Source: Alphaproteobacteria bacterium
GTDB taxonomy: Bacteria; Pseudomonadota; Alphaproteobacteria; Sphingomonadales; Kordiimonadaceae
DNA length: 64,000 nucleotides
Direction of reading: 5' to 3'
NCBI GenBank assembly: GCA_021774735.1
Contig: JAJFIS010000022.1
Span: 62,001-126,000 of the forward strand
Positions 2,582 to 15,061 of this stretch are shown one piece after another (positions within the stretch are counted from its first letter, which is position 1; each line of letters starts with the position of its first letter). Made by a program: the position numbers and the translations under genes. The notes below the pieces were generated by a model. It made no database searches and was not told the origin of the DNA. It saw only the letters and a program-made list of their open reading frames with translations.

Positions 2582-3238
2582 TTATGGTCTTTCTGCGATC
2601 AAGTTCGTTACTGTTTGGATGTTATGCATCCAATCTACTGTAATTGCATTTCTAAACGAGATTAACTCAAACATTTTATCATAGTCAGCTTGTGCATTTC
2701 TATTGAAAATTGGCTCGTGATGAGCGATGCGGTTACGAAGCTTCCTTATCTCTGAAATATCAGAAAATATTTTTCCTCTAAGTTCTGCTATAGTCAATTC
2801 CGCTGCTTGTGGAAAAACATCTTGGATATGAGGCCCCCAAATTCTATTATCATGCCTTGCTGTAAACATTTTTTCCCAGAACACAAACTTTAGTTCTGCA
2901 ACAACCCTTCCCATAGTTGGGTTATCCATTCGAGCAATATTTTGCAGATTTTTTCTAGGGTTATATCCACGAGTAGGGCTAGGTAGACTTAGAATAAATG
3001 TATCATTCCACGGCCAATTTGAGGTATAAACCCTTTCTAGGCACTCTACGACTGCATTTCGGAGACTTATTTCTAGAAAATGAAGGGGCACTATAAAGGC
3101 GGATGATAACTCTAAATTCCATTTGTATAGTTGGAGTGCCGCCGCTCGGTCATTCTCGCAATGCTGTAGGTAAGTAGCAAAACGTGGCTCTGATAATATT
3201 TGAGGGATATTTGAAAGTTGATTGGAAGAAAATGACAT
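2582..3238 (-). CDS. Abi-like HEPN-domain protein (abortive-infection family)
   Basis: 218 residues from the chosen ATG. The C-terminal part carries the HEPN ribonuclease signature R-N-x3-H (Arg158, Asn159, His163) in the context KLRNRIAHHEPIF, which is typical of Abi_2-type proteins; an upstream 'FLEISLRNAVVE' block also matches that family. Members are linked to phage exclusion or RNA cleavage in other bacteria, and here that role is inference. An upstream extension to 3337 is open but opens with residues unlike the family, so the ATG at 3238 is preferred although its ribosome site is weak. The gene is clearly more AT-rich than its neighbours, stands alone without an obvious antitoxin, and faces a possible small RNA gene. 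Transfer is likely. Confidence 0.75.
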   Translation of the reverse strand: MSFSSNQLSNIPQILSEPRFATYLQHCENDRAAALQLYKWNLELSSAFIVPLHFLEISLRNAVVECLERVYTSNWPWNDTFILSLPSPTRGYNPRKNLQNIARMDNPTMGRVVAELKFVFWEKMFTARHDNRIWGPHIQDVFPQAAELTIAELRGKIFSDISEIRKLRNRIAHHEPIFNRNAQADYDKMFELISFRNAITVDWMHNIQTVTNLIAERP

Positions 3239-3267
3239 TCTAAAATTCTTGTGATATTTGATTTTAT

Positions 3268-3297
3268 TTGACAGCAATAGCATTAAAGAGATACTAT
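3268..3297 (+). promoter_or_regulatory. Sigma-70-type promoter without a downstream coding gene
   Basis: A perfect -35 TTGACA (3268-3273) and a good -10 TACTAT (3292-3297) are separated by 18 bases. No plus-strand reading frame of useful length follows, but a strong intrinsic terminator ends about 90 bases downstream, so it probably drives a short RNA. Confidence 0.55.
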
Positions 3298-3303
3298 GTA
3301 CAC

Positions 3304-3388
3304 AGATGTTATGGGATTCGTGGGTGAGAACCTCCACTCGTAACGATAAGAATACTGAAAGCTCACTTTTTAAGTGGGCTTTTTGTTT
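3304..3388 (+). ncRNA. Candidate small RNA of about 85 nt
   Basis: The interval lies between a near-consensus promoter (3268-3297) and a strong intrinsic terminator (stem 3359-3368 / 3372-3381, three-base loop, T-rich tail to 3388). No protein of reasonable length is encoded. Near 3321-3338 a short hairpin (GTGG/CCAC) presents an unpaired stretch containing ACCTCC, which is complementary to a ribosome-binding site; this resembles anti-SD loops seen in several alphaproteobacterial regulatory RNAs. I do not recognise a known family, and the ends are estimates from the promoter and terminator. Confidence 0.45.
3359..3388 (+). terminator. Intrinsic terminator of the candidate small RNA
   Basis: Ten-base-pair stem (one G-T pair) AAGCTCACTT / AAGTGGGCTT with loop TTT, followed by TTTGTTT. 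The T tract is on the plus strand only, so it ends plus-strand transcription although no plus-strand protein gene precedes it. Confidence 0.7.
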
Positions 3389-5926: not shown

Positions 5927-6870
5927 TGCATGAGCCCCAAGTCGCTCTTGTTCTTTTGCTACAAATAGCAGCGGCCATTCTTCTTGATATATTACTGGGT
6001 CGGCCAAGGCTTCTTGGTCGTGTGCCCGGCCCTGATAGCCTATTGCATACTATGAATATATGGCTTTCAAAACGCTTAGATCGCGCCCGACGCAGTGATG
6101 CAAACAGGATTGTGCGTGGTCTGCTGGCGTTGCTTGCCTTAAGCTGCTTATTATGGCCCTTTGGAGCATGGCTGGACAGCTTTACCCATAGCGGTGGTCT
6201 TGGCATAATATTTACCACCTTATTGCTAACATTACTGATAGGCCAACGTGCTGTGTGGGACACGACCAAAGCCTTGTGTAATAAGTTGAAGGAAACATCC
6301 AACGCCGACGACAAAACCCGTTACGGTGCGGCTCGCTGGGCAATCGAGCGCATAAACATACGCTTTGCGGACGGTTTGGTTGCCAATACTGTCATATATG
6401 TATTATTCGGTTTTTCGGCGTTACTTATATACCGAGCACTTACCATGGTAATTGCCGTTGGCTCGCCCAATGGGGTTAAAGCTCCCAACAGCCCCTATTT
6501 CTTTGGTCTTGTAAAACTTTATAATTTTTTCGGTTTTCTTATGGGCAGCCTTGCCGGAATTATCCAGCGACTAGCAGCTATTTTTGTCCCTAAAGCACGC
6601 CCATTTGCTGGATTTCCCGCATTGGGCATCATTGAAGATAGCCTAGCCGCTCGCCGTATTCCCTTAATGACAATGGCACATACATTAGGGTATAATTTTA
6701 AACTTAATATTGAAGTGAATGACAGCAATGCAACATGGATTGGCCCGGGTGACGGCAAAGCGCGGTTAAACGGACAAGATATCAAACGCGCTCTATTGCT
6801 GGCTTGGATCAGCACTGGATTGTTATTACTTGTTGTCCTATCAATTATTTTGGCTTTTAACATGCTATGA
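5926..6870 (+). CDS. Divergent CbiB/CobD-like integral membrane protein
   Basis: 314 residues with about five membrane segments (around 8-25, 63-82, 91-106, 154-176, 285-310). The opening DILLGRPRLLG and the block FADGLVANTVIYVLFGFSAL match the CobD/CbiB family, whose members attach aminopropanol to adenosylcobyric acid; the C-terminal ARLNGQDIKRALLLAW block also fits. The family's usual Pro-Asn-x-Gly-x-Pro-Glu-Ala motif is not visible and no other cobalamin gene is nearby, so cobinamide synthesis is doubtful. It overlaps the preceding gene by one base and regB by four, so translation is coupled. Confidence 0.65.
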   Translation: MHEPQVALVLLLQIAAAILLDILLGRPRLLGRVPGPDSLLHTMNIWLSKRLDRARRSDANRIVRGLLALLALSCLLWPFGAWLDSFTHSGGLGIIFTTLLLTLLIGQRAVWDTTKALCNKLKETSNADDKTRYGAARWAIERINIRFADGLVANTVIYVLFGFSALLIYRALTMVIAVGSPNGVKAPNSPYFFGLVKLYNFFGFLMGSLAGIIQRLAAIFVPKARPFAGFPALGIIEDSLAARRIPLMTMAHTLGYNFKLNIEVNDSNATWIGPGDGKARLNGQDIKRALLLAWISTGLLLLVVLSIILAFNML

Positions 6871-8198
6871 CCCAACCTTCTAATCAGTCAGCTAACAAAG
6901 AATTTCCACCTTTAACAATTGAATTTGATATCAGGCTTTATACACTGTTATCCATCCGTTGGTTGGCAATTTTTGGTCAATTATTTGCCTTGTTATTTGT
7001 AAAATTTTACATGGGATATGACCTTTCCCTAGTCCTTTCTTTACCTATCGTTCTGGTATCTGTCGCTTTAAATATAATTTTAATGATAACGCAAGGTGCG
7101 CATCACCGACTGAGCGAAAAAAGCGCCGCCCTTCAATTAGCCTATGACCTTACGCATTTAACTGCATTGCTCTTTGTCACCGGCGGTCTTGCAAATCCCT
7201 TTGCGGTTTTAATGATTGCACCGTTGGCTTTTGCATCCAATATTCTTGGAAAGCGGTCAAGTTTATCTCTGCTGGTATATGCTACTGTCTGCGTATCTAT
7301 TTTAGCCTTAAGCCCTTACACCTTGCCATGGAACGGCGCACCACCTGTTTTAGAGGCCGTCTATCTTTTTGCCCACTGGCTTGCGCTGGTTTTCACCATG
7401 ATATTTTTGGTGCTATTTATGGTCCGTATCGCGGAAGATACACGGCGGCGCAATCGCGCTTTAGAAGTAACCCAAGCAGCGCTTGCCAAGGAACAAAAAT
7501 TAGCGGCAATGGGAACATTGGCAGCCGCAGCTGCCCATGAATTGGGGACGCCACTTGGCACCATCATGCTTGCCGTCCGTGACCTGACCGACTTTCAAGA
7601 TGTGCCAAAAGACCTAAAACCCGACATAGATATCATCATGGAAGAGGCCCAACGTTGCCGCAATATTCTAGCCGAAATTAGCGCCCTTAGACGCGGAGAG
7701 CTGGAAGACCCCTTTGCATTCCAGCCCCTTGATGCATTGGTGCATGAAGCAGGCGCACCCCACGCTGAGCGCGGACCAAAAATTGTTATCGTTCGGGATA
7801 AAAGCAGCCAACCGGTTATCCGCCGCCAACCTGAAATTATTCACGGCCTGCGCAATATACTCGAGAATGCTGTTGGCTTTGCAGACTGCCGCGTTGATGT
7901 AAAAATTAACTGGGATGACGATACTGTTCATATCAATATTAGCGATGATGGCCCGGGTTTTAGCCCCCATATTTTGCGCCAATTGGGAGAACCTTATATT
8001 AGCCATCGCCCAGGAAATGACCAACCTGATGGCGGGCTTGGTCTTGGCGTCTTTATTGCAAAAACATTGCTTGAACGCACGGGGGCCGCTATGTCCTTTA
8101 GTAATAATGATCTCGGAGGGGCAAGCGTTCACTTAAGTTGGCCGCGTGTCCAGCTTGAAGGACCCGTTACTAACCAAGAAGGCAATAAGCATGACTGA
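6867..8198 (+). CDS. regB: RegB/PrrB/ActS-family redox sensor histidine kinase
   Basis: 443 residues. Six predicted membrane segments fill residues 28-190 and include the RegB ubiquinone-site heptapeptide in the form GGLANPF (106-112). The phosphorylation box is AAAAHELGTPLGT with His224, in the characteristic RegB 'H-E-L-G-T-P-L' form. Cys264 in EEAQRCRN lies where the redox-active cysteine of Rhodobacter RegB is found. N and G boxes of the ATPase domain are intact. RegB senses respiratory redox state and phosphorylates RegA. Its ATG overlaps the CbiB-like stop, and its TGA lies inside regA. Confidence 0.92.
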   Translation: MTQPSNQSANKEFPPLTIEFDIRLYTLLSIRWLAIFGQLFALLFVKFYMGYDLSLVLSLPIVLVSVALNIILMITQGAHHRLSEKSAALQLAYDLTHLTALLFVTGGLANPFAVLMIAPLAFASNILGKRSSLSLLVYATVCVSILALSPYTLPWNGAPPVLEAVYLFAHWLALVFTMIFLVLFMVRIAEDTRRRNRALEVTQAALAKEQKLAAMGTLAAAAAHELGTPLGTIMLAVRDLTDFQDVPKDLKPDIDIIMEEAQRCRNILAEISALRRGELEDPFAFQPLDALVHEAGAPHAERGPKIVIVRDKSSQPVIRRQPEIIHGLRNILENAVGFADCRVDVKINWDDDTVHINISDDGPGFSPHILRQLGEPYISHRPGNDQPDGGLGLGVFIAKTLLERTGAAMSFSNNDLGGASVHLSWPRVQLEGPVTNQEGNKHD

Positions 8199-8739
8199 TA
8201 CCGACCCCATTGCAAATAAAGGTAGTTTGTTAATTGTTGAAGATGATAGAATCTTCAGGGGTCAATTAATGCGCGCGATGATCCGTCGGGGATTTGATGT
8301 TATTGAGGCAGCTTCCATTGCTGACGCTAAAGCAACCATAGATGAACAGTCGCCGGACTATGCCGTAGTAGATATGCGCTTAGGCGATGGTAATGGCCTA
8401 GATTTGGTGCCGTGGCTGCATGAACGCCTGCCCCAAATGCGGATCATAATTTTAACGGGCTACGGCAATATTGCCAGTGCGGTAGCCGCTGTAAAAAGCG
8501 GCGCTGTAGACTATTTAGCTAAACCCGCAGAGCCGGATGAAATTGCCGCAACATTGTTATCATCAGGCCAAGAAGCGCCGCCGCCACCCGAGAATCCAAT
8601 GTCGGTTGATAGGGTAAGATGGGAGCATATCCAGCGGGTCTATGAACTATGTGATAGAAATGTCTCGGAAACAGCCCGGCGCCTAAATATGCACCGCAGA
8701 ACACTTCAACGAATCTTAGCAAAGCGCTCACCTCGATAA
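8191..8739 (+). CDS. regA: RegA/PrrA/ActR-family response regulator
   Basis: 182 residues. Receiver domain with phospho-acceptor Asp61 (VVDMRLGDGNG) and Lys111, a short Pro-rich linker (about 127-134), and a Fis-type helix-turn-helix. The C-terminal 45 residues (DRVRWEHIQRVYE... SETARRLNMHRRTLQR) are the almost invariant RegA signature. It controls genes for respiration and other energy pathways in relatives. A longer frame from 8146 exists, but AGAAGG lies eight bases before the ATG at 8191, which overlaps the end of regB by eight bases. Confidence 0.95.
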   Translation: MTDTDPIANKGSLLIVEDDRIFRGQLMRAMIRRGFDVIEAASIADAKATIDEQSPDYAVVDMRLGDGNGLDLVPWLHERLPQMRIIILTGYGNIASAVAAVKSGAVDYLAKPAEPDEIAATLLSSGQEAPPPPENPMSVDRVRWEHIQRVYELCDRNVSETARRLNMHRRTLQRILAKRSPR

Positions 8740-8761
8740 GTAGCGCTTAAGGCTGAAATAT

Positions 8762-10063
8762 TCATTTAGTGATAGGGCTAATCGCTTGTCCCTGAAAAAG
8801 CGTGATTCCAAGTGACGTGCCTTCCCTCAAACTCTTTTGGTCATCTACACCGCTTAAAATGACATGCTCACGACCAATTTTTGACACCATTTCAATCATT
8901 TGGCGTCTTTCACTAGCGCTAAAATCATAAATGGCGCTGTCATTACGCAACCGTATTTTAACAAAGTCCGCTTTCATTGAATCCGCTTTCATCAATAAAA
9001 AGGCCAAGGGTTCAATTTCATTAATGCAAAATTTGAAGCCTTTTTGCCCCAATTTATCAGCAGCCTTTTTGAAACGCACTGGGTCTTCGAGCATATCAGA
9101 AAGTGACATCTCTATAATGAACTGACTGCGAGGAGTATTGCCTATTCCTTTATCAAAAATATCAAAAGATTGCCCCACAACTGATGCAGCAGAAACATGA
9201 ATACTGGCCGCCATGGTTTTTGCATCACCCATGCTGTGGCCTGAGGCAAGAATGCGCTCTGAAAGGAATTCCATTATATAACCACGAAACCATAGGTTTG
9301 ATTCTATATCGACATCAGGCAGCAAAATCTCACGCACCACATCCAATGGAATAAAGCGTGTAGTAAAAACAGGAGCCTGACCACCCTTTACAACAGCCAT
9401 CACCTGTTGGCGACGCAGAAGGTTGCTGACATCAACGGTTTTTAGCCCATCAATTAATTGTCGCAGGGAAGTCGTATCTAAAGCCCGCCCACTGCGCTTA
9501 GTTTGAGCATCTGGCATTTCAATGGTTACCGTTCTGGTACCCTTGCGCATGCTCGGTGAGCTGGTTGATGTTTTCTCATACGAATCGGAGCCTGTATTCT
9601 GCCTTGGAATTCTCGGAGCCGCTGGTCGCAAAGGTGCAGCGCCAGTATTGGTGTATGATGAGGCGATCTCTATAAAGAATTTATAATCGCGCTCAAGTGG
9701 ATACCAACCGATAAAGGCATCTGATGTACATTGAACCGGGTCTAAGTTTTTTACGATCATCGAATCTGATAGTTCGCGCCGAATTTGAATTAGCGTAGGC
9801 TCAATATCATCTGGCTTAGCGCCGTTTAAAATTATGATAGAATCTGCGTTGGGCATGCCGAACATACGCGAATCAGCAAAGCGCGCCACCAACTTTCGTA
9901 AATGCTGGGCCACCAACTGCCGATAATATGATGCTTGAAACTGCTTCTCCAAAGCCGACAATTGAATCACTAAAGCCGTTCGGTCTTTAGAATGTCGCTT
10001 CAATTGCTTTGCATATTCCAACATTTGTTTTGTTTGGGAAATTTGTCCCAGTTTTTTCGCCAT
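8762..10063 (-). CDS. Degenerate EAL-domain protein, probably catalytically inactive
   Basis: 433 residues, no signal peptide or membrane segment. The N-terminal 150 residues resemble a worn-down signalling domain and are followed by a Ser/Pro-rich linker. The C-terminal half (about 200-433) follows the EAL fold order and ends in FQGQAISP, like the QGYxxxxP end of EAL domains. The E-A/V-L motif and the metal-binding Asp/Glu residues are not recognisable, so c-di-GMP hydrolysis is unlikely; ligand binding or protein interaction is the alternative. It lies beside a LapG-like proteinase gene and a degenerate HD-GYP gene. Confidence 0.65.
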   Translation of the reverse strand: MAKKLGQISQTKQMLEYAKQLKRHSKDRTALVIQLSALEKQFQASYYRQLVAQHLRKLVARFADSRMFGMPNADSIIILNGAKPDDIEPTLIQIRRELSDSMIVKNLDPVQCTSDAFIGWYPLERDYKFFIEIASSYTNTGAAPLRPAAPRIPRQNTGSDSYEKTSTSSPSMRKGTRTVTIEMPDAQTKRSGRALDTTSLRQLIDGLKTVDVSNLLRRQQVMAVVKGGQAPVFTTRFIPLDVVREILLPDVDIESNLWFRGYIMEFLSERILASGHSMGDAKTMAASIHVSAASVVGQSFDIFDKGIGNTPRSQFIIEMSLSDMLEDPVRFKKAADKLGQKGFKFCINEIEPLAFLLMKADSMKADFVKIRLRNDSAIYDFSASERRQMIEMVSKIGREHVILSGVDDQKSLREGTSLGITLFQGQAISPITK

Positions 10064-10150
10064 ACTTCACCCGATAGATAAATATTTAGTCTAAAATGTA
10101 TCTTTTTACTTCATAGATCAAGTCTGACTTATCTACTAGTATTGATCTTT

Positions 10151-10921
10151 TCATTGGCCATTCCGATGGATCCACCAAGCACTTTCATTGATCGTATAAA
10201 TTGGACGGTAATGGTGGATTTTCGTGTGGGAAAGTGGCTGATTAAATTGATTATCAAGCACCAAAATATCGCCGTCTAGATAGACCGCTAAAATAGCATG
10301 AGCTACTTTCAAATTTTCATCCTGTACCACAGCAATGCGCATGCTATCGCCATCAAATCCTAATTTCTTCAAGAGGATATATTTGCTAATCGCATAATCT
10401 TCACAGTCCCCGTCTTTACGAAAAAATTCTTTTGGTGTTGCCCAATAGTCCGGCAAGCTCCAATTCACTGGGTCAATAATATACCGGCGTAAATTAATAT
10501 AACTATTGATAGCCTTCACTTGTTGAGAGGATGTTTTGCCCCTCAAGCCTGCGACAAATTCATCTATTGCCACACTGGAATAGCCAGAATCACGCCGCCG
10601 TGCTGCCCGCTGCAGAGGACTTAAAGGTTTATCGGCGCTTGTTGCCATCTTTGGCTTGTTGGCATCTGCTGCTTGCGCTTTGTGATAGCGCATCCACATA
10701 CCCTTCCATTTGGTGAAAGCGCGCATATCTTCTGAACGCGCTTCGCGAACACCAAATAAAGTGGCTTCATTGGAGACTTGAATGCTCTTTGGCTGATTTT
10801 TATCATCATAGATAGCTTGCAGGGGCTGGCCCAATCCATAGCCCACCAATAAAACTACCCACAGCAACCCTTTTCTAAATTGCCTATTTATAATCTGAGC
10901 TTTTTGATAACAAATTGCCAA
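10151..10921 (-). CDS. Bacterial transglutaminase-like cysteine proteinase (BTLCP, LapG-like)
   Basis: 256 residues with an N-terminal hydrophobic segment (18-30) that serves as signal or anchor. The catalytic triad of the family is visible: Cys173 in GDCEDYA, His208 in VAHAIL and Asp223 in LVLDNQF. LapG of this family cleaves large surface adhesins under control of the c-di-GMP receptor LapD. No adhesin or typical LapD is in the window, but a degenerate EAL protein follows on the same strand 87 bases downstream. The best start is TTG, with GAGG about eight bases upstream, because later ATGs would remove the export signal. Confidence 0.82.
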   Translation of the reverse strand: MAICYQKAQIINRQFRKGLLWVVLLVGYGLGQPLQAIYDDKNQPKSIQVSNEATLFGVREARSEDMRAFTKWKGMWMRYHKAQAADANKPKMATSADKPLSPLQRAARRRDSGYSSVAIDEFVAGLRGKTSSQQVKAINSYINLRRYIIDPVNWSLPDYWATPKEFFRKDGDCEDYAISKYILLKKLGFDGDSMRIAVVQDENLKVAHAILAVYLDGDILVLDNQFNQPLSHTKIHHYRPIYTINESAWWIHRNGQ

Positions 10922-11108
10922 CTACCAACCTCACAAATAATAAATGCGTAAAATTCAAGCATGTAATTATATTAGTATGAATCACAATGTCATGCCTGTC
11001 GATCCTCTATTACATGATATTTTAGCTAATAATTGATGAATTTGCTTTCCCAAATGCCAACTTCTTTATACCCTGCAATTTGGAACAATAAAAAAGGACA
11101 GCTAACTG

Positions 11109-13169
11109 ATGACGCTTTCTGAGAATAATCGCATTGGGCTGGCGAGCATTAGCCTGTTGGTTGTTTCAATATTGGGGTTTTTCTTAATCTGGCAGTTCGC
11201 AGAAAAGGAAAAAGCGAAAGACTTAAATGCCTGGGAAGAACGGTTAAATTTAATAGCCGCCAGCCGCTCTGATGCCGTATCGGCTTGGCTTAACCGACAT
11301 TTAGAATCCCTAAAAACTCTATCGGATGATGCATCACTGCAAATTTACACCAGTGAAATTGCAACTGACCCCTCTACATCAGAAGCACAGCTAAGCTTTG
11401 TGCGTAATCTGCTGAATACCACCGCCCAAAATACTGGTTTCCATGAGAACCGTCCTATGGACCAGATTCAAGCTAATGTCAGGGCATCTGATCGTGCTGG
11501 TTTAGCGCTTGCTTTTGCCGACGGAAAAGTCATGATAGCATCATCTGGCATGCCACAAATTGCAATACCCACCGATTTAATGAAAATAGGCCAAAGCTTC
11601 ATCACTATGGGGCCTTCACTTAGTGACCGCACTCCCTTAATATTATTTGGTGCCCCCGTTGGCACCCTCGAAGGCTTTTCCACCGGCAACATCAATCGAC
11701 AAGCATGGGTGATTGGTGCCAGAGCAATGGATGATGATTTTCTGTCCCTTTTAAGCCAACCCGGCGTCGCCCATGAAAGTGGGCGAACATACCTTGTGCA
11801 AGCGGTTGGGGACACTGATGCCGTCACCATTTTAACACCTTTAACCGAGGGTGGTCGGCACCCTGAGACCCTAAAAAATCAAGCGGCAGCAGAAGCCATT
11901 AAGCAACCCGGTAAAGCCCGCATATTACCCGGTGCATTGGGAAGCGATGTTATGGCCACAGGGCGCGACCTATCTGCACCTGTCGACTGGGTTCTTGTGC
12001 GTAGTATTGCCGCAAAAGAAGCGCTATCTACCGTTAATAGCCGCCGTAATGAGTTGATCACTACCCTGTCTATTGCCGCATTAACCCTAGGGATAGTTAT
12101 CTTCCTTGTCTGGAAATTGGGCGTATCCCATAAACTTTCAGCCGCCTTGACCCAGAGCGCCCACTTATCAAAAGAAAATGCCCAACTTAACGAATTTTTG
12201 GTCAGTGTCAGCAATAGCCAACCCACTGCAATTGCAGCGGTTGATATATCCCTTACTATCCGCCATGCCAATAACCGCATGGGCGAGCAGATTGGCGCCA
12301 ATGGGCACCACCTCATTGAACGTCCACTTGCTACTGCATTCCTAGGGGAAGACAGTAAACGAATTTGTGCTGCGGCCCAACAAGCAGTTGACGGAAAAGC
12401 TAACAGCTTTTTGCACCAGCTTGTAACTTCCAACAAAACATATCAAATCGACTGTATTCCACTACAAGATGGTAATAACCCGGATGCTGCCGATGCCCGC
12501 GCCCTAATTGTTATGCAAGATGTCAGTGAGCTCATTCATGCGCGGGAAGAAAGAGAGGCCTTTTTCGATGAGCTTGTATCTACGCTAGCTTCAATAATTG
12601 ATGCCCGTGACCCATGGAGCAAAAAGCATAGCGCCCACCTTGTCCAAGTGGCAAATGCCCTAACTGAAGCCATGAAACTAGATGAGGTTGAAGCACAAAC
12701 AACCCTTACCGCAGCTCGGTTGATGAATTTGGGCAAGATATTAGTACCCCGTGAAATTCTGGTAAAACAGACACCGCTGACAAAAGGTGAACTTGTTCTA
12801 GTGCGTGAAAGCATTCTTGAAGGCGGCGCATTTCTAAGTGATCTGTCCTTTGGCGGCCCCGTTGCAGATACCATTAAGCAAGTGCAGGCCCACTGGGATG
12901 GCACTGGATTACCTAGTGGCTTAGCCGGCGAAGATATTTTGATCCATGCCCGAATTTTATCCGTTGCAAATGCTTTTGTCGCCTTAGTTAGCAGCCGTGC
13001 TCACCGGGATGGAATGGACTTTGACCGAGCAGTGGAAATTTTATCTAAAGATTCTGGTGCGCACTATGACAAGTCCGTCATTACAGCACTGGCCTATATT
13101 CTTGACCATGGGGATGGCCGGGAAAAATGGGCCGCTTTCCGCGAACAGCATTCATCCAATGACGATTGA
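11109..13169 (+). CDS. Membrane sensor with PAS and degenerate HD-GYP domain
   Basis: 686 residues: membrane helix (about 13-30), periplasmic sensor region (31-312), second helix (about 315-335), PAS-like domain (about 355-475) and HD-GYP-like domain (about 480-675). In the last domain the family layout is kept (QAHWDGTGLPSG in place of the GYP block, LMNLGKILVP in place of HDIGKIxIP), but the metal-binding His-Asp pair is replaced by Asn-Leu, the first HD is HS, and the VADAFDA block reads VANAFVA. c-di-GMP phosphodiesterase activity is therefore unlikely. AAGGA precedes the ATG by about nine bases. Confidence 0.8.
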   Translation: MTLSENNRIGLASISLLVVSILGFFLIWQFAEKEKAKDLNAWEERLNLIAASRSDAVSAWLNRHLESLKTLSDDASLQIYTSEIATDPSTSEAQLSFVRNLLNTTAQNTGFHENRPMDQIQANVRASDRAGLALAFADGKVMIASSGMPQIAIPTDLMKIGQSFITMGPSLSDRTPLILFGAPVGTLEGFSTGNINRQAWVIGARAMDDDFLSLLSQPGVAHESGRTYLVQAVGDTDAVTILTPLTEGGRHPETLKNQAAAEAIKQPGKARILPGALGSDVMATGRDLSAPVDWVLVRSIAAKEALSTVNSRRNELITTLSIAALTLGIVIFLVWKLGVSHKLSAALTQSAHLSKENAQLNEFLVSVSNSQPTAIAAVDISLTIRHANNRMGEQIGANGHHLIERPLATAFLGEDSKRICAAAQQAVDGKANSFLHQLVTSNKTYQIDCIPLQDGNNPDAADARALIVMQDVSELIHAREEREAFFDELVSTLASIIDARDPWSKKHSAHLVQVANALTEAMKLDEVEAQTTLTAARLMNLGKILVPREILVKQTPLTKGELVLVRESILEGGAFLSDLSFGGPVADTIKQVQAHWDGTGLPSGLAGEDILIHARILSVANAFVALVSSRAHRDGMDFDRAVEILSKDSGAHYDKSVITALAYILDHGDGREKWAAFREQHSSNDD

Positions 13170-13231: not shown

Positions 13232-13633
13232 TTATAAATTAGCGGCTATAGTTTCATTCAGTCCATTAATTAATTCACGTCCTTTTGCGCCGCCATCACC
13301 GCAGATACGGTGTTCCACGACCAACCGTATAGCGGATATATGATTATTAATAACTTGGGAATTACTAACCCCACACTCTGCAACATTGCGGCCATATTCG
13401 CATAAAATACTGCTAATCTCAGTTAAAAGGTCATAGCCAAAGGTTGACCCCATACCCTTAATATTATGGGCTATACCGTAGATTTCATCAGAAACTTCCT
13501 CTGGTGGAGAAGCTAACGGAGGAAGGTCCACAGCGAGTTCAACCAGCCGCGTAACGCTTCCGTCGATATAATCGATGAATTGTTCCGCCAATGCGGCCCT
13601 ATCATCAATACTTAGTTGTGCCATAGCTTCCAT
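13232..13633 (-). CDS. Solitary HPt (histidine phosphotransfer) domain protein
   Basis: 133 residues. The phosphorylatable His sits in IAHNIKGMGSTFGYDLL, the standard HPt motif (H-x-x-K-G-x-x-x-x-x-G). HPt proteins shuttle phosphoryl groups between hybrid kinases and regulators. No hybrid kinase with a receiver domain is in the window, so its partners are elsewhere or are the kinase/receiver pair at 31-33 kb. It is convergent with the HD-GYP-like gene (62-base gap). A second ATG four codons in could also serve as start. Confidence 0.82.
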   Translation of the reverse strand: MEAMAQLSIDDRAALAEQFIDYIDGSVTRLVELAVDLPPLASPPEEVSDEIYGIAHNIKGMGSTFGYDLLTEISSILCEYGRNVAECGVSNSQVINNHISAIRLVVEHRICGDGGAKGRELINGLNETIAANL

Positions 13634-14089: not shown

Positions 14090-15061
14090 TCATTCGATAT
14101 ATAAATTACCTTGGGTAAAGTCGAGGGCAAAACTACGACCCTTCACTAAATCCATGCCAAAAAGGCCATAGGGCTGATCTGCCACACCAAGCTCTGAAAA
14201 TATAAATGGATCATAAACGACCATCAATTGCTTGTACCACTGGGCGGCACCCGCTTTGAGTTTCTTGACTATAATCGCCCGTACATCACGGCGGCTACCA
14301 AAAACATCAACTATCTGATTAGGCACAGATTCTCTAGCATTAGGCGTTATTTTAGCATCAAATATAACCTGGCTAATTTTGTCAAATGATGCATTGTTTA
14401 TGTGAGTAAGTTCTGCACCTAAGTCAAGAATAAAAGTGGTGCCTATACCCTGTACTTGGGCATCAATAACAAACAGGTGCCCCTTTTTCATGCCAAAGTT
14501 TTCTTTTCTAACTGGAATTTTTTGCCACTTACCCCACATTTTTTTAGAGGGTGTTCTTGTTGAGAAAAACTCAATTCGCTTCGTTTCATTATTCACAACA
14601 GTTAAATATTGCTCAAGGAAATCTAATCCTAATACACCTTGTGGGGTGCGACGTATTTCATGCCAATCTGGGAAAACTACGCCTTCATGCTGCTGTAAAG
14701 TTAAACCCGCAACAGATATATCACCAATAATAAAGGGCTGTAATTTCTCCAATTGTGCCAACCCTAAAACACGTTTGGGTCTTTTATCTAATGGTGAAAA
14801 TTTTTGAAGAACGGCAAGGTTTTCAAAGGCTGATGTAAAGGTGGCTCCCGTGTCGATAATAAAATCATAGGGACCGTCACCATTTACCGTCACTTCTACT
14901 GTTACCAATCCACCATAGTCAAGGCGGTAAGGCAGGCTAGCCACCGGTTCAGCTTCACGGGCATAGATATTACTGGAAATAAAAGTTACAAAAATAATTG
15001 TAGCGAGCATCCCATAGAGGATCCGCATATCATTTTCTATATGGCTAACAAGCCTTTTCAT
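14090..15061 (-). CDS. Exported retropepsin-like aspartic protease
   Basis: 323 residues with an N-terminal hydrophobic signal (about 15-33, cleavage after IYA). Two aspartic protease half-sites are visible: IDTGATF (around residue 69) and LDLGAEL (around 217), as in the bilobal family of bacterial aspartyl proteases with a retropepsin fold. The second motif has Leu in place of the usual Thr/Ser after Asp, so activity is uncertain. Start is uncertain: a TATAAT lies just upstream of the first ATG, so either the mRNA is nearly leaderless or translation begins at Met12. Confidence 0.72.
   Translation of the reverse strand: MKRLVSHIENDMRILYGMLATIIFVTFISSNIYAREAEPVASLPYRLDYGGLVTVEVTVNGDGPYDFIIDTGATFTSAFENLAVLQKFSPLDKRPKRVLGLAQLEKLQPFIIGDISVAGLTLQQHEGVVFPDWHEIRRTPQGVLGLDFLEQYLTVVNNETKRIEFFSTRTPSKKMWGKWQKIPVRKENFGMKKGHLFVIDAQVQGIGTTFILDLGAELTHINNASFDKISQVIFDAKITPNARESVPNQIVDVFGSRRDVRAIIVKKLKAGAAQWYKQLMVVYDPFIFSELGVADQPYGLFGMDLVKGRSFALDFTQGNLYIE

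Follow-up and report, generated by a model that had tools for sequence, protein, structure and literature searches.

Which protein tells a LapG-like protease when to cut? The 64,000-nucleotide stretch of contig JAJFIS010000022.1 studied here (the window), from the genome of a marine alphaproteobacterium of the Kordiimonas family, encodes such a protease between a soluble protein with a degenerate EAL domain and a divergently transcribed membrane protein with a degenerate HD-GYP domain, both related to proteins of cyclic dimeric guanosine monophosphate (c-di-GMP) signaling. The original prediction grouped the three genes as a receptor system and not a turnover system. All three were found where it had placed them, and the choice of receptor over turnover is well supported, because catalytic residues are lost family-wide in both domains and the HD-GYP protein falls together with DvhD. 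This protein of Desulfovibrio vulgaris (Hildenborough), described in sulfate-reducing bacteria, is an HD-GYP-based receptor that senses c-di-GMP without hydrolysing it and switches a LapG-type protease on and off, thereby governing the release of surface adhesins; it functionally replaces LapD, from which it differs radically in architecture (PMC13090378). The likely receptor of the protease is thus the HD-GYP protein and not the EAL protein, and we read the divergent pair as a DvhDG-type inside-out switch, with a probability of about 0.7. The locus probably represents DvhDG-type control in Alphaproteobacteria, accompanied by a dead GGDEF-EAL protein.

The receptor contains a transmembrane (TM) segment, a periplasmic dCache fold, a second TM segment, a PAS domain and the HD-GYP domain. 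Its AlphaFold2 model has a mean predicted local distance difference test score (pLDDT) of 88, and the best matches of this model in the PDB are all three DvhD crystal structures, in the right domain order: 9rbz (HD-GYP with c-di-GMP, Z 27.0), 9rc0 (PAS/HD-GYP, Z 25.7) and 9rc2 (dCache, Z 16.8). The profile of the receptor family matched the PAS/HD-GYP chain of 9rc0 with an E value of 5.6e-66 or 1.5e-72, with V-cGAP3, PmGH and PA4781 trailing far behind. The periplasmic domain has a long first helix that is split in two (model residues 5-72 and 75-86), as described for DvhD. The receptor belongs to the DvhD clade, apart from canonical HD-GYP proteins: two maximum-likelihood trees, in which the canonical sequences were few and long-branched and the exact root is uncertain, united the window type, a second type from Sneathiella and DvhD on a branch with support of 99/98 and 100/98, DvhD being the sister of the Sneathiella second type.

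The loss of HD-GYP metal ligands is nearly as extensive across the whole receptor family as in the window. Seven of the eight PmGH-type positions are changed in the window, where only H507 is kept; the HD pair is replaced by M539 and N540, the HH pair by V592 and Q593, and a further aspartate by N621. Among the 43 family members, the aspartate of the HD motif (D222) is asparagine in 41 and the last aspartate (D305) is asparagine in all. The residues that hold c-di-GMP in DvhD, numbered and assigned their roles as in PMC13090378, are kept for the most part but not throughout. K520 is arginine in 43/43, L577, R650 and R653 are invariant (each 43/43), P567 is proline in 41/43 and the position of Y523 is aromatic in 42/43, several of the contacts that are kept being shared by all HD-GYP domains.

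The protease matches Peptidase_C93 (E 3.7e-15) and the LapG crystal structures 4u65 and 4fgo (E about 1e-31), and scores 85.2 bits against the LapG equivalog NF045674, below its cut-off of 320. Its N terminus resembles a signal peptide by inspection, and it is the sole C93 gene in the genome. The triad C173/H208/D223 and the calcium-site residues D172/E174, equivalent to D316/E318 of DvhG (PMC13090378), are invariant in 18 sequences, so that the catalytic set is, as judged from alignment, intact. The proposal that all three parts are non-catalytic therefore holds for the EAL and HD-GYP domains and fails for the protease.

Receptor and protease also travel together. In a sample of 387 alphaproteobacterial genomes, the receptor HD-GYP family occurs in 69, about one in six, and C93 is present in 58 of these, compared with 123 of all 387 (Fisher P 1.8e-23, a value that overstates independence, the genomes being related to each other). 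Of 70 receptor genes, at least 45 have a C93 gene no more than 2.5 kb away, a lower bound counted from the best-scoring C93 places. The two families thus co-occur and usually adjoin.

A mechanism can be proposed from the homology and fold of each part, the residue losses, the intact protease and the pairing. By analogy with DvhD, and given the conserved contact residues, cytoplasmic c-di-GMP would bind the dead HD-GYP domain; the PAS domain, stalk and TM helices would pass the change on to the dCache domain in the periplasm, as in DvhD, and the latter would restrain the exported protease. A drop in c-di-GMP would then free the protease to cut a protein of the envelope or cell surface, the likely candidate being an adhesin. 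The GGDEF-EAL protein, catalytically dead and cytoplasmic, is taken to be an optional accessory.

Several observations weigh against this reading. The receptor dCache domain (model residues 40-309) matches many other dCache domains just as closely as 9rc2; of the DvhD contacts, the receptor family does not conserve K582 and Y621, and R569 is likewise not kept; 11 receptor-bearing genomes show no C93 at all; and no type I secretion system (T1SS) genes adjoin the pair in the window. The search for an RTX adhesin yielded one large protein, the sole one found in the genome; the parts of it that were read show neither a recognised LapA retention domain nor a [T/A/P]AAG motif. This protein is marked by DDTGT repeats and apparently spans two contig ends, with its C-terminal end on C15 (L183:15758-17929, minus strand) and its N-terminal end at the start of C18 (L182:1-1554, minus strand), the contigs being broken within the repeats. 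The N terminus is of low complexity, the N-terminal part has no NCBIfam match, and the gene adjoins its own T1SS of two ABC genes and an HlyD gene (L182:1862-7310). A search of the genome with the retention_LapA model reached 13.4 bits at best, a chance-level score (cut-off 50). No complete lapD/lapA set that might account for the protease was found elsewhere in the genome, and LapD_MoxY_N matched nothing there, although the control of that search also matched nowhere and the lapD result is not a sound negative.

The pair may accordingly be real and yet act on the capsule or another envelope component in place of a T1SS adhesin, as HvyA does in Caulobacter. We regard this as unlikely, at about one chance in four. 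HvyA is itself a C93 member, of the bacterial transglutaminase-like cysteine proteinases (BTLCPs), that keeps the cell from forming a capsule, and BTLCPs of Alphaproteobacteria are found in a variety of contexts (PMC4241560); the failure of our genome searches to find a retention domain or cleavage motif points the same way. HvyA, however, is under cell-cycle control of expression with no DvhD-like partner reported, and in the Sneathiella clade DvhD-like/C93 pairs adjoin a LapBC-type T1SS. In these loci, a second C93 gene stands in an operon with genes for a TIGR03375 (LssB/LapB-type) ABC exporter and an HlyD (LapC-type) protein, with TolC nearby. The next gene encodes another DvhD-like protein of full length, with SQ at the HD motif, as in DvhD, and T1SS genes, protease and receptor are together as in the Dvh operon. 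A window-type pair lies near, the two DvhD-like/C93 pairs being about 10 kb apart; no adhesin was seen in the approximately 18 kb read past the second receptor. Such two-pair loci are L142, L148, L124, L125 and L129 (and L185-L199).

The third protein differs from its first description in containing, besides the EAL-like domain (residues 197-433), a degenerate GGDEF fold (1-140) that the original prediction missed, the two being joined by a disordered linker (150-189). The EAL match (E 1.8e-8) covers profile positions 71-235 only. The top structural matches of the model (pLDDT 85.6) are GGDEF-EAL proteins and EAL proteins, LapD and FimX among them. Both halves are catalytically dead, to judge from their motifs: the GGDEF loop reads MPNAD, and of the EAL motif residues only E318, K369 and Q424 are kept, the other positions being TRF, H289, N348/E349 and S404. 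The EAL, DD and EGVE positions are not conserved across 35 relatives, and no complete set of catalytic residues turned up for either the EAL or the HD-GYP domain.

Could this protein be the c-di-GMP receptor of the protease, a LapD without membrane anchor? Its fold resembles the LapD GGDEF-EAL module (6pwk, 3pjw, 3pju) and its gene sits in the protease operon. It has, however, no TM-like stretch (maximal 19-residue hydropathy 1.08) and no periplasmic part, and therefore cannot itself touch the exported protease; the motif positions listed above are not conserved; and the gene is dispensable. In Kordiimonas aquimaris and an uncultured Kordiimonas it is gone, with regBA, C93 and receptor retained, and three genomes keep only its first 139 residues. 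The protein also occurs elsewhere without the protease, one relative keeping the EAL gene without C93. We consider a receptor role very improbable and rejected the protein as a LapD substitute for its lack of a TM segment and its dispensability. The three truncated forms are clean, small stand-alone genes for a degenerate GGDEF domain (L090:4612-5031, L092:6558-6977 and L097:6555-6974, minus strand), with no EAL remnant downstream. Turnover, by either HD-GYP or EAL as an active phosphodiesterase, is scarcely credible: both domains exceed their Pfam cut-offs, but the metal ligands are lost across 43 (HD-GYP) and 35 (EAL) relatives, and DvhD, whose losses are comparable, shows no c-di-GMP hydrolysis (PMC13090378).

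A stronger contender, though we hold it at somewhat under even odds, is that the GGDEF-EAL protein is unrelated to the protease and belongs with RegB/RegA, the C93 and receptor genes merely lying beside it. The EAL gene and regBA are convergent, tail to tail, in the window. A RegB relative, often with RegA, is near the EAL homologue in 8 of 13 fetched distant loci away from C93, and several Kordiimonas hold regBA and the C93/receptor genes without the EAL gene or its EAL domain. Against this, loci of the Dongia and Emcibacter types have the EAL gene after C93 and lack adjacent regBA, and the C93 link is therefore independent of regBA there. The GGDEF-EAL protein is thus an optional partner, attached in genomes to two separate sets of genes, C93/receptor and regBA, and at most an accessory. 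Its most likely mode, which is a guess, would be to modulate the receptor side through protein-protein contact or to provide a link to the RegBA redox system. A bolder extension, in which DvhD-class control of a periplasmic protease is widespread in Alphaproteobacteria and one branch has gained the RegB/RegA-tied dead GGDEF-EAL protein as a second cytoplasmic input coupling redox to surface proteolysis, is doubtful, and we would give it perhaps one chance in five. The association of EAL homologues with regB was seen in the window (6867-10063) and in distant alphaproteobacteria at L210, L211, L212, L215, L216, L219, L220 and L221; no description of a conserved GGDEF-EAL/regBA association was found.

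The arrangement of the three genes exceeds chance, because the EAL family, C93 and the HD-GYP protein recur in the same order in relatives' loci. Relatives found at matching places include Kordiimonas gwangyangensis and K. marina. In the scan for related loci, a single EAL protein query matched nothing and a query with the HD-GYP family alignment yielded loci; across the window and 20 relatives, the EAL family is present in 20 loci, and C93 and the HD-GYP protein in 18 each. The features of the locus and its surroundings are collected in Table 1. Both regB and regA neighbours pass the equivalog cut-offs of the RegB/RegA redox system; the called start of regA overlaps regB, and the true start is probably downstream. 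A gene for an Hpt-domain protein, for which no obvious kinase partner is present there, is a conserved neighbour of the receptor gene, found beside it in 17 of the 21 loci.

Table 1. Features of the protease/receptor locus and neighbouring genes (window positions).
Feature	Position	Strand	Length	Remarks
Soluble GGDEF-EAL protein gene	8762-10063	-	433 residues	87 bp downstream of the protease gene, same strand
LapG/DvhG-like C93 protease gene	10151-10921	-	256 residues	TTG start as called
Intergenic region, protease/receptor	10922-11108		187 bp	Divergent; divergence kept in relatives
DvhD-type membrane receptor gene	11109-13169	+	686 residues	Pfam HD_5, PAS_4
RegB/PrrB/ActS redox histidine kinase gene	6867-8198	+		NF033792, E 4.2e-142, 473.9 bits (cut-off 350)
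RegA/PrrA/ActR redox response regulator gene	8146-8739	+		NF033791, E 1.3e-84, 282.5 bits (cut-off 250)
Hpt-domain protein gene	13232-13633	-		Convergent with the receptor gene
Retropepsin-like aspartyl protease gene	14090-15061	-		PF13650; a few genes from the locus
Abi_2/HEPN_Swt1-like protein gene	2582-3337	-		Possible abortive-infection gene; not conserved in compared relatives

Regarding known systems, the pair follows a LapDG-like logic and its receptor is nearest DvhDG by descent; gene order, host group and the dead GGDEF-EAL companion set it apart from both. With DvhD/DvhG it shares a dCache-TM-PAS-degenerate HD-GYP receptor beside a BTLCP protease with intact triad and calcium site, the same HD-GYP clade and most of the residues at the positions that contact c-di-GMP in DvhD. 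It differs in its alphaproteobacterial host, in its divergent genes, as opposed to one Dvh operon with T1SS and adhesin, in a protease that, like most DvhG orthologues, seems to be exported by way of a signal peptide and not anchored in the membrane, in the additional dead GGDEF-EAL gene that follows the protease gene, and in the HD motif, which is M/V-N here and S-Q in DvhD. LapD/LapG of Pseudomonas fluorescens is similar in its LapG-type periplasmic cysteine protease, in having a c-di-GMP-domain membrane receptor, here presumably non-catalytic, and in the presence of a GGDEF-EAL module. The receptor described here, however, is built of HD-GYP and dCache, whereas LapD is built of LapD_MoxY_N and GGDEF-EAL; in addition, the GGDEF-EAL protein is soluble and no LapA-type adhesin was identified in the genome searches. 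HvyA of Caulobacter crescentus (PMC4241560) likewise comes from the Alphaproteobacteria and is a periplasmic C93 protease with a C/H/D triad, but its gene belongs to a locus for capsule export. FimX and other degenerate GGDEF-EAL proteins resemble the companion protein in being soluble, with dead GGDEF and EAL folds (Z about 18 for the EAL half against the FimX EAL domain); in the companion, the EAL pocket motifs are eroded, which makes c-di-GMP binding doubtful, and no PilZ partner is known.

We found nothing in the literature searched on this arrangement in Alphaproteobacteria, although the authors of PMC13090378 may already know of some members from this class. Several GGDEF proteins are encoded in the window's genome, which favours the proposed switch. 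For the alphaproteobacterial C93 group, whose targets and regulators are largely unknown, a prediction is gained, and Kordiimonas and Sneathiella offer culturable hosts for DvhD-type control. The presence of the DvhD clade with a matching protease in a share of genomes on the scale of 69 in 387, once beside a LapBC-type operon, suggests that the HD-GYP-based alternative to LapD in the control of surface proteolysis is older and more widespread.

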